The notes under the pieces: generated by a model
Seen by the model: only the letters and a program-made list of their open reading frames with translations
Database searches by the model: none
What the model was told of the DNA's origin: nothing
DNA from: Lachnospiraceae bacterium
Lineage (GTDB): Bacteria; Bacillota; Clostridia; Lachnospirales; Lachnospiraceae
Length of the DNA: 53,783 nucleotides
Assembly (NCBI GenBank): GCA_024691125.1
Contig: JAILNV010000227.1
Location: 1-53,783 of the forward strand
Reading direction: 5' to 3'
In this document: one piece after another, positions 9,533 through 48,965 of the stretch
Numbering within the stretch: position 1 is the stretch's first letter
Layout of the letters: each line of letters starts with the position of its first letter
Translations under genes and position numbers: made by a program

Positions 9533-9745
9533 ATGAACAGGGAAAGCTACCGTGTAATAAGAATATTACTTGTTCCCAAGGTGGTGGGACTTATTGCAGA
9601 AACATTTGACTGGGATGAGATAAAAGCATGTACCGCCTTCTATAACTCGAAGCTTAACGAACAGCTCGAACAGGACGACAACGATCTGTGGACCTACAGC
9701 GAGTACAAGCTTCTTGAACTGTTCCGCAAGGAAATTATAGAATAG
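9533..9745 (+). CDS. 70-residue protein, possible partner of DUF3791
   Basis: Small acidic protein not firmly recognised. The pattern LLVPKVVGLIAETFDWDEI followed by FYNSKLNEQL and WTYSEYKLLELF is one I associate with short proteins encoded beside DUF3791/DUF3990 genes, but I cannot verify this here. GAGGG is well placed before ATG. Its last three codons (Ile-Glu-stop) are supplied by the 134-bp repeat that starts at 9737, so the original C-terminus may have been longer. It could be an antitoxin-like or regulatory component, which is inference only. Confidence 0.7.
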   Translation: MNRESYRVIRILLVPKVVGLIAETFDWDEIKACTAFYNSKLNEQLEQDDNDLWTYSEYKLLELFRKEIIE

Positions 9746-9870
9746 CGAATTTCATCAGAAATTCGGTATTCGTACTGGACTAGGCTCTGCTGAAAGCAGA
9801 GGCGTGTCATGCGGAACGCATGATTTCTGAATGCATTTCCTTGTTTGCATTCAGAAAGTCATACAGTGAT
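9737..9870 (+). repeat. 134-bp four-hairpin repeat, copy 1
   Basis: Matches 48772-48905 (inverted in the window) with only three differences in 134 positions. It contains four perfect stem-loops in a row: 9747-9764 (7-bp stem, ATCA loop), 9785-9801 (7-bp stem, GAA loop), 9808-9822 (6-bp stem, GAA loop) and 9824-9857 (12-bp stem, 10-base loop). It begins inside the last codons of the 70-residue gene and ends about 60 bases before the DUF3791 start. It has no transposase and no clear terminal inverted repeats. A structured RNA or a small non-autonomous mobile element are the two main readings. Confidence 0.88.
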
Positions 9871-9933: not shown

Positions 9934-10143
9934 ATGACCAACGAAGGTAATTTTCTGACCTATTGCATAGAACAGTATAAATACGAAAAAAAAATGAGCG
10001 GAAGACAGGTGATGGATCTGTTCTCTAAGTACAATGTACTCGAATACATATACAACTCCTGTGATCCGCTTCATGAAAATAAGGCAAAATTCATAGTCGA
10101 GGATATCGATATCTATATAAAAGCCTGCAGGCACTGCTCTTGA
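9934..10143 (+). CDS. DUF3791-family small protein
   Basis: 69 residues. LTYCIEQYKYEKKMSGRQ, then LFSKYNVLEYI and a final IVEDIDIYI match the compact helical DUF3791 domain (CIE-YK-SG-EVF-LF-YG-DYI). The start at 9934 is chosen because the domain begins there and GGGAG lies 12 bases upstream. The frame is also open back to an ATG inside the repeat at 9820, which would add 38 residues. DUF3791 genes are commonly paired with a DUF3990 gene, but none follows here: the next gene is on the other strand. The locus may be a remnant of a larger cassette. Confidence 0.72.
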   Translation: MTNEGNFLTYCIEQYKYEKKMSGRQVMDLFSKYNVLEYIYNSCDPLHENKAKFIVEDIDIYIKACRHCS

Positions 10144-22848: not shown

Positions 22849-23100
22849 TTATGCCCACTCCCATTTTTTGCCAAATTTCTTTTCATATTCCTCGGGAGTT
22901 ATCATCTCGGTACTTACGCCGAGCTTATTGGCCTCATGCAGCACTGCCCTGTTGGCAAAAGCCCTGTACAGTACATCACCGGTGGTATCGTCTACTACTG
23001 CACTGTCGTAATTGGCTCCACCATCAATGATCAGTCCCCCTGAAATATTTTTAAGATCTTCAATAGTAAGCTCTCTGCGCTCTTTGTTTTTATCTGCCAT
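22849..23100 (-). CDS. Small peptide with double-glycine leader motif
   Basis: 83 residues. The N-terminal third ends in LTIEDLKNISGG (about 11-22), the pattern of double-glycine leaders of bacteriocins and other peptides exported by C39-peptidase ABC transporters. The predicted product after the Gly-Gly is about 61 residues, with no Cys, few Gly, and a charged C-terminus ending in aromatic WEW. It is thus not a lanthipeptide or a typical class II bacteriocin. A strong promoter (23143-23171) and AGGAGG drive it alone. No transporter, modifying enzyme or immunity gene is adjacent. It could be a signalling peptide or simply a cytosolic protein with a chance motif. Confidence 0.7.
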   Translation of the reverse strand: MADKNKERRELTIEDLKNISGGLIIDGGANYDSAVVDDTTGDVLYRAFANRAVLHEANKLGVSTEMITPEEYEKKFGKKWEWA

Positions 23101-47817: not shown

Positions 47818-48756
47818 TTATTCATCATCCTCCGACTTCTTCTTAAACTGGTTCTGAAGTCTTGAATACAGCTCCTGTGCCGCATTATATCCCATCTTCT
47901 TCTGACGGTAATTAACAGCCGCCGATTCACATATGATCGCAAGATTTCTTCCGGGTCTTATCGGAATATTATGGCACACTACCCTGTTACCCAGATATTC
48001 GATATAATTCTCCTCCAGGCCTATCCTGTCATAATCCTTATCTTTATCCCACTCTTCAAGTCTTATAACAAGGTCTATAGACTGCGTATCCTTAACACAT
48101 GAAACACCAAAAAGCATCTTAACATCCACGATTCCTATACCTCTGAGCTCTATAAGATGCTTGGTTATGTCAGGCGCTGAACCTATAAGAGTTTCTTCTG
48201 ATACTTTCCTTATTTCAACAACATCATCGGTCACGAGACGGTGTCCTCTCTTTATAAGCTCAAGAGCAGCCTCGGATTTTCCTATTCCGCTCTCACCTGT
48301 TATCAGCACACCCTCACCATACACATCTACCAAGACTCCGTGAACTGAAATACATGGAGCCAGTTCAACATTAAGCCACCTTATTATCTCGGCCATAAAA
48401 TCTGATGTTGCTCTTTTAGTTACCAGTATCGGAACTCCCTTTTCCCTGGCAACATCAACAAAAGTCGGATCCGGCTGTATCTCCCTGCAGAACACAAAAC
48501 ATGGTGTGCTGTGCGAAAGCACATGCTCATATCTTTCCTTTTTATCCTTCGGGTCAAGCCCTTCCATATAAGTCGCCTCAACGAATCCGATGATCTGTAC
48601 ACGGGAAGCCTCATAGTGCTGAAGGTATCCCGCCAGCTGAAGAGCCGGTCTGTTGATATCGGGGATGGTTATCTTCCTTCCCTTGACATCAATATCCGGA
48701 GTGAGGTTCACCAATTCCATTTTTTCAATTAATCTGCTTACCGCTACTGTTGACAT
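47818..48756 (-). CDS. hprK: HPr kinase/phosphorylase
   Basis: 312 residues. It adds and removes phosphate on Ser46 of HPr/Crh in response to glycolytic state. An N-terminal regulatory domain (about 1-130) precedes the kinase domain with Walker A GESGIGKS (154-161), followed by the LVTDDVVEI segment and the ELRGIGIVDVKMLFG family signature. The start at 48756 is preferred: AAGGCGG lies just upstream. The frame is open back through the 134-bp repeat (which would add 78 residues), but the first Met with a ribosome binding site is here. Confidence 0.97.
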   Translation of the reverse strand: MSTVAVSRLIEKMELVNLTPDIDVKGRKITIPDINRPALQLAGYLQHYEASRVQIIGFVEATYMEGLDPKDKKERYEHVLSHSTPCFVFCREIQPDPTFVDVAREKGVPILVTKRATSDFMAEIIRWLNVELAPCISVHGVLVDVYGEGVLITGESGIGKSEAALELIKRGHRLVTDDVVEIRKVSEETLIGSAPDITKHLIELRGIGIVDVKMLFGVSCVKDTQSIDLVIRLEEWDKDKDYDRIGLEENYIEYLGNRVVCHNIPIRPGRNLAIICESAAVNYRQKKMGYNAAQELYSRLQNQFKKKSEDDE

Positions 48757-48771
48757 ATACGTCCGCCTTTC

Positions 48772-48905
48772 ATCTCTGTATGACTTTCTGAATGCAAACA
48801 AGGAAATGCATTCAGAAATCATGCGTTTCGCATGACACGCCTCTGCTTTCAGCAGAGCCTGGTCCAGTACGAATACCGAATTTCTGATGAAATTCGCTAT
48901 TCTAT
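48772..48905 (-). repeat. 134-bp four-hairpin repeat, copy 2 (hprK leader)
   Basis: Reverse complement matches 9737-9870 with three differences. The same four stem-loops are kept, and one loop changes from GAA to AAA. It ends 15 bases before the hprK start, just upstream of its ribosome binding site, and lies downstream of the putative promoter at 48966, so it is in the hprK 5' untranslated region, in the same orientation relative to the following gene as copy 1. Confidence 0.88.
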
Positions 48906-48965
48906 GATACCTCAAATGCAACTGTCTCCTGTGGATCTTATCCAGAGTATTGCATACCATGATAT

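Follow-up and report, generated by a model that had tools for sequence, protein, structure and literature searches.

A four-hairpin repeat of Lachnospiraceae with precise, AT-centered insertion and a covarying fold

The 53,783-nucleotide stretch of Lachnospiraceae DNA analyzed here (the window) carries two copies of a small folded repeat. Comparisons of copies, ends and empty sites establish this element, at the level of sequence, as a mobile insertion that is precise and has a symmetric target centered on AT. Covariation among the copies shows that a four-hairpin fold of one strand is maintained, even across genera in which the stems have changed. We consider it probable that the repeat is a non-autonomous mobile DNA element that is moved in trans at AT by a dimeric recombinase or transposase and that needs a folded strand.

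The stretches at positions 9737-9870 (plus strand) and 48772-48905 (read on the minus strand) differ at 3 of 134 positions, as an earlier note on this DNA had reported. The differences fall at 9781 in the linker between hairpins 1 and 2, at 9814 within the loop of hairpin 3 (GAA or AAA), where the note had also placed a loop substitution, and at 9867, outside the right end of the element. Copy comparison gives exact ends of the form Y-AT-[AG...GTC]-AT-R. The element is shorter than the 134 bp first proposed; it ends at 9862 and the last eight of those bases lie outside it. With both AT dinucleotides, copy 1 occupies 9737-9862 (plus strand) and copy 2 occupies 48905-48780 (minus strand). In copy 1 the left AT (9737-9738, plus strand), one copy of a putative 2-bp target duplication, and the right AT (9861-9862, plus strand) enclose a 122-bp core that runs from AG to GTC (9739-9860, plus strand), and covariance model R2 scores 133.9 bits over 9736-9862. 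The same model gives 133.1 bits for copy 2 taken with both AT and the preceding pyrimidine (48780-48906, minus strand); its core (48782-48903, minus strand) lies between the AT at 48905-48904 and the AT at 48781-48780.

Hairpin 1 (9740-9771, plus strand, in copy 1; 48871-48902, minus strand, in copy 2) has a 14-position stem with one G.G mismatch and the loop ATCA, which is conserved across genera. A conserved unpaired linker follows (9772-9782, plus strand, in copy 1) that reads GTACTGGACTA in the window and approximately CGTANNNGACCA in the family. Hairpin 2 (9783-9803, plus strand; 48839-48859, minus strand) has a 9-position stem, with seven perfect inner pairs and a single G.G mismatch close to the base, and the loop GAA. 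Hairpin 3 (9807-9823, plus strand; 48819-48835, minus strand) has seven pairs and the loop GAA in copy 1 or AAA in copy 2, and hairpin 4 (9824-9857, plus strand; 48785-48818, minus strand) has 12 pairs and the 10-nt loop TTTCCTTGTT. The first description of four perfect hairpins thus applies fully to hairpins 3 and 4 and to the inner parts of hairpins 1 and 2, each of which has its one mismatch. The RNA fold of 9717-9860 has a z-score of -7.46, and 0 of 200 shuffled sequences were equally stable.

Copy 1 supplies the stop codon TAG (9743-9745) of the gene upstream of it (9533-9745, plus strand), which has no Pfam family above the cut-off. Downstream lies a DUF3791 gene (9934-10143, plus strand; PF12668, E 2.1e-15), whose start (ATG 9934) was placed by comparison with relatives. 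Copy 2 lies within the leader of hprK, the gene for HPr kinase (47818-48756, minus strand; PF07475, E 4.1e-70; PF02603, E 3.1e-42), 23 bp ahead of the ATG (48756) and, as judged by eye, directly ahead of the ribosome-binding-site-like AAAGGCGG. The two copies do have the same orientation just before the next gene, as first described, when they are read relative to DUF3791 and hprK; the copies themselves are on opposite strands. This placement does not extend to the family as a rule. Co-directional contexts, with crude open frames as gene calls, comprise 36 sense and 44 antisense cases, so a fixed orientation to genes was rejected, and the unbiased orientation makes a fixed cis-regulatory role unlikely. 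Copies are mostly intergenic (7 of 119 fall inside crude ORFs). Elsewhere in the window, a short ORF near ATP synthase genes (22849-23100, minus strand) has by eye the double-glycine-leader-like start LTIEDLKNISGG and is possibly a bacteriocin-type peptide.

Relatives show both window sites without the element. The hprK site was empty in 11 of 11 relatives read, from 34 with a match, and the DUF3791 site was empty in 10 of 10 read, from 17 with a match. Empty hprK sites read TACTATC-AT-ATAAG in genome G008 and TATC-AT-AAA in G005 and G035; the filled site in the window reads TATC-AT-[element]-AT-ACAG, and only a short stretch matches upstream of the junction. AT flanks both ends of the element and is single in the empty hprK sites, a pattern in which a duplicated AT and an element-borne AT are indistinguishable. 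Tandem copies have one AT in common.

The sequences beyond the AT are symmetric as a population. Flank statistics were calculated for 57 copies from g1, the genus of the window, and 39 g154 copies with perfect ends, leaving out the imperfect ones (2 of 59 and 21 of 60, respectively). The base before the left AT is a pyrimidine in 55/57 (g1) and 37/39 (g154) copies, and the base after the right AT is a purine in 54/57 and 38/39. The two flank profiles mirror each other over 12 positions with r = 0.74 for the 57 g1 copies and r = 0.92 for the 39 g154 copies; the best shifted controls reached 0.19 and 0.54. Within single g1 and g154 copies the two flanks show no complementarity (481 matches, with 480 expected), which rules against hairpins as targets and makes the symmetry a property of the consensus.

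The ends of the element resemble its targets. A matrix made from genomic flanks only was scored along the copies, and a mean of 0.1% and 0.1% of internal windows reached the score of the left and right end in g1; the corresponding means for g154 were 2% and 0.3%. Half-sites similar to an end were then removed as a guard against insertion beside older copies, and many g154 flanks are indeed the ends of neighboring copies. Without half-sites at least 9/12 identical to an end, the mirror correlation was 0.68 (g1) and 0.78 (g154), and the left and right ends stood at 0.6 and 1.6% (g1) and at 4.1 and 11.8% (g154). A cut at 8/12 or more lowered the ends to 2.7 and 3.7% (g1) and 14.8 and 15.5% (g154), and a cut at 7/12 or more to 23 and 22% (g1) and 69 and 34% (g154), with the mirror correlation still at least 0.64. 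The end match fades with stricter cuts because the motif itself gets removed. By these measures the likeness of ends and target is firm in g1 and weaker in g154. Both ends fit one 12-bp half-site matrix and, by eye, have no long inverted repeat in common.

The symmetric target and the target-like ends suggest that donor ends and targets are bound by the same dimeric protein around AT. The mover would be a dimeric recombinase or transposase encoded elsewhere that binds a half-site (R...T...GAA in the genus of the window; RnnTTYTTG in Pseudobutyrivibrio) in each of the element's ends as well as in the pseudo-palindromic target. The joining of ends to target would use a 2-bp (AT) stagger and could occur in both orientations. 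A 2-bp core flanked by half-sites that are alike in target and donor ends, as observed here, fits a serine recombinase and may also fit some DDE transposases; serine recombinases and transposases with 2-bp duplications would both be candidates. The folded strand, either RNA or single-stranded DNA, would be needed for spread or for tolerance. A plain double-stranded DNA transposon needs no folded strand, conserved loops or near-fixed length, and would leave part of the biology unexplained.

Covariation supports the fold in each of three alignments. In A1 (35 g1 copies aligned with MAFFT) double changes occur in 8 of 42 pairs, with at least one in every helix, and the 37 double-change cells compare with 10.5 in shuffles and 0 to 9 in slid controls; further pair types show no excess (15 against 15.0 in shuffles). 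In A2 (52 distinct rows from 51 loci, nearly all from the second genus) double changes affect 36 of 42 pairs, with 360 cells against 107. The joint alignment A4 (102 matches, 90 of them distinct, at 100 loci chosen by the analyst) has double changes in 34 of 42 pairs and 96.4% of its cells paired, and its 918 double-change cells compare with 259 after shuffling and at most 218 in slid controls. Both inner helices take part, with double changes in 9/9 pairs of helix 2 and 6/7 pairs of helix 3. A2 and A4 were fitted to the model structure, which favors pairing; the slid controls and A1 agree in direction. The length of the element is nearly fixed, with 98 of the 102 A4 matches at 125-128 nt and 69 at exactly 127, and shorter and a few longer matches appear at a looser threshold. 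One copy (L211:4234-4414) is 181 nt long and seemingly carries an additional hairpin inserted into the hairpin 3 loop. Across the alignments G-U cells are more numerous than A-C cells, by 23 to 10 in A1 (in 6 and 5 columns), 75 to 15 in A2 and 36 to 8 among 35 A4 cluster representatives (in 18 and 4 columns). This excess points to the strand that runs from 5' AT-AG to GTC-AT 3' as the kept fold, as RNA or single-stranded DNA.

The genome of the window (300 contigs, about 89% complete) has 34 BLAST matches at E <= 0.001, of which 13 span at least 126 bases. The dispersed copies are near-identical, have defined ends and no coding capacity and face empty sites in relatives, as interspersed repeats do. 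The earlier note had proposed a conserved structure spread as a mobile non-autonomous element and had tied this proposal to further copies in the genome and to compensatory changes in the stems. Both are present, the latter in all four stems, and the proposal gains further support from the empty sites, the exact ends and the symmetric AT target.

The distribution of the element across the genus of the window is patchy. Matches occur in 8 of 37 genomes, the window's own included, and the other 29 have none. Among the matches listed, four genomes (G000, G005, G008 and G035) have 23 to 25 each, G003 has six, G009 two and G023 one, and G032 has a single match of 33 bases. Covariance model R1, built from 35 sequences, was run over 397 genomes of the family and added one genome, G189. 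The two top copies in it differ clearly in their stems but share the ATCA loop, have the linker GTACTGGACCA and resemble the other copies at their ends. When one of these G189 copies served as a BLAST query, matches appeared in 25 of the 29 genomes of the G189 genus, in some cases as short pieces only. A divergent four-hairpin relative in G189 (L154:1501-1629, minus strand) lies between dnaK and dnaJ and overlaps the dnaK stop, with the genes identified by eye.

Scanning named genomes with a descriptor made of loop, stem length and linker gave at least 114 stretches. Of the 80 with a title listed, 78 are Lachnospiraceae, comprising Pseudobutyrivibrio, Butyrivibrio sp. MB2005 and AC2005, and metagenome-assembled genomes, many from the rumen. 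The two Pseudomonas-type matches (L243 and L269) have no four-hairpin array and were set aside as chance; with the covariance model L243 scores 24.6 bits and L269 is absent at E up to 1. The broader model R2 found the element in at least 3 of the 397 genomes sampled from the family and at least 2 of the 391 sampled from the class, the window's own genome in both, and these counts are lower bounds from eight candidates scored per genome under strict filters. Viral contigs scanned with the descriptor and plasmids and phages searched with BLAST gave no match to the element. Element copies at L191:2656-3501 (minus strand) lie, by eye, among fragments of Hint-domain-like proteins (HCFVAGTLVCTVDG...).

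Partial forms are common. The 115 distinct g1 pieces divide into 60 of at least 115 nt and 55 shorter ones, and the short pieces, which include those cut by contig ends, comprise 28 without the 5' part only, 20 without the 3' part only and 7 without both. Solo hairpin-1 palindromes with AT on both sides occur at L025, L108 and L110 and, in G189, at L383; solo hairpin-4 palindromes occur at L078 and L020. L117 is a 26-base end-to-end form with little beyond the ends.

A third setting was found in genus g179, where 2 of 17 genomes (G214 and G839) carry a shorter form, some 110 nt long, that retains the loop, has a similar linker and is embedded in a different folded repeat of roughly 170 nt. In all 20 of the empty copies examined, which were picked from matches with contiguous outer parts, this host repeat is uninterrupted. 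Of 21 filled loci, 19 were readable and have the element at the identical point and in the identical orientation; the remaining two were not found by a motif search of one strand. This pattern could reflect a single insertion that spread along with its host or repeated insertion at that point. With 50 and 61 BLAST pieces in G214 and G839, the host repeat itself occupies the loop of a longer stem, which is not constant from one copy to another. In the loci inspected (L374, L375, L377, L379 and L417-L436) this outer stem varies per copy, and the surroundings look terminator-like by eye.

Candidate movers were sought near the copies and among known recombinase families. No mobilizing gene was seen by eye in the 40 largest clusters from 3530 open frames around copies, clusters that include non-coding frames, and by eye no neighbor gene is shared in the largest ORF clusters apart from the loci fetched for hprK. 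In G438 and G437, the genes enclosed by copies 0.9 kb apart do not look like mobility genes, and no linked cargo or parent gene was seen in these comparisons. An autonomous parent with the same ends was not found among the neighbors of copies or at 52 Y1 or serine recombinase loci. No element-model match adjoins any of these 52 loci except one chance match of 19.9 bits (L365), which is that RAYT's own palindrome plus terminator. The Y1 loci examined were 19 plus L059-L061, with L060 and L061 also inspected by eye. RAYT-like Y1 genes (L060 at about 840-870 and 1850-1880; L365:2050-2140) have their own palindromes with GGGGACGGTTC, which are unrelated to the element. The Resolvase domain is present in 24 of 37 genomes of the genus, in 7/8 carriers against 17/29 others (one-sided p 0.14), including all four high-copy carriers, and is absent from carrier G009. 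The presence of Resolvase thus does not discriminate carriers, and no specific gene was singled out.

Within the genus, 18 of 37 genomes have Y1_Tnp matches, 7/8 carriers against 11/29 others, an excess with p 0.02 before any correction for relatedness or for the two families tested. This excess favors a REP/RAYT-type or other IS200/IS605-derived element that is moved as single-stranded DNA by a hairpin-recognizing Y1 transposase, a reading that also accommodates the single folded strand and the solo hairpin derivatives. We judge it unlikely. The high-copy carrier G035, with 23 of the matches listed, has no Y1_Tnp match, with a miss possible in a genome that is 82% complete, and the Y1 frames of the carriers differ in length (141-166 aa in G005; 218-281 aa in G000, G003, G008, G009 and G032). 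The symmetric target, the lack of bias in orientation to genes and the lack of a GTAG tag all weigh against this reading, as does the RAYT at L060, which by eye has its own unrelated repeat.

An ordinary MITE of a DDE insertion sequence would explain the fold as a by-product of inverted ends. IS30 is an example of a DDE insertion sequence with 2-bp duplications, and the symmetric target, the AT at both ends and the 26-base derivative are what such an origin would give. This account is improbable given that the inner hairpins 2 and 3 covary as strongly as the outer ones. The conserved loops and linker and the near-fixed length are unexplained by inverted ends alone, the two ends are only weakly alike, and the search described above, which covered the neighbors of copies and the Y1 and serine recombinase loci, found no parent element.

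A folded RNA could instead take part in the insertion as a guide, by splicing or through a reverse-transcribed intermediate. The strand-specific fold with its conserved loops, the intron-like placement at one point in another structured repeat in G214 and G839, and the 28 of 55 partial g1 pieces that lack the 5' part and retain the 3' end are in line with RNA-borne mobility. The 20 of 55 pieces that lack the 3' part instead argue against it, as do the random orientation to genes and a symmetric target with a 2-bp AT of the kind expected for double-stranded DNA, and we find this mode of spread quite improbable. The earlier note had offered a regulatory or processing RNA as its other reading. 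As such an RNA acting in cis on the next gene, the element would have a reason for its strong, covarying fold, and both window copies do precede a gene in the same relative orientation, one of them in the hprK leader. This reading is very unlikely in view of the unbiased orientation in crude gene calls, the lack of a common neighbor gene by eye besides the loci fetched for hprK, and the absence of the element from both loci in every relative read.

The preferred reading thus remains a non-autonomous DNA element moved in trans. A more speculative and rather doubtful proposal is that the repeat represents a new class of RNA-only (or single-stranded-DNA-only) mobile element. Here the 127-nt fold, and not just the ends, would be recognized by a trans-acting recombinase, the folded strand would help to choose or join AT targets, and the element could lodge intron-like in a structured repeat. 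Small structured repeats are common in bacteria, and the mover and the reason for the fold are often unknown. For this element the exact ends, the empty sites, the half-site common to donor and target and the cross-genus covariation model make the mover huntable and the need for the fold testable, and hprK, a core regulatory gene, has one copy in its leader.

No description of this repeat was found among the matches listed from a partial, open-access coverage of the literature, and the available text of a 2010 survey of 104 candidate RNAs names no such motif. The element resembles Rfam families in being structured with covariation, but neither the window nor four G214 loci gave a match above threshold for any family of Rfam release 15; the best permissive match by bits is SpF44 (19.5 against a threshold of 70). 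Like MITEs, as defined in PMC3049150, it is short, non-autonomous and folded, with a putative 2-bp duplication, but it lacks clear terminal inverted repeats of typical length and does have conserved internal hairpins and loops.

The element is nearest in kind to the BOX, RUP and REP-type repeats (PMC3049150, PMC3733652). The BOX, RUP and SPRITE repeats of Streptococcus are likewise small, strongly folded, non-autonomous, interspersed and clustered, and BOX is modular, with boxA and boxC joined by a variable number of boxB modules (PMC3049150). The present element differs from them in host and in being one near-fixed 127-nt unit of four hairpins with cross-genus covariation and an AT target. 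It has neither a tandem middle module nor an A-B-C plan, a separation from BOX that is made by description, and, whereas the ends of BOX and RUP are reported to resemble known insertion sequences (PMC3049150), no such resemblance of the ends was found here. REP and REPIN sequences with their RAYT are likewise palindromic, present in many copies, thought to be mobilized in trans and found in solo and compound forms (PMC3733652, PMC3116915, PMC8266576). Their hairpins are marked at one foot by a GTAG (or CGTC) tag (PMC3733652). Our element ends in AT-AG and GTC-AT with no such tag, and Y1 genes are commoner in its carriers yet were found in none of the contigs of one high-copy genome. In contrast to REP and REPIN, it is a compound of four fixed hairpins with a symmetric AT target (PMC3733652).
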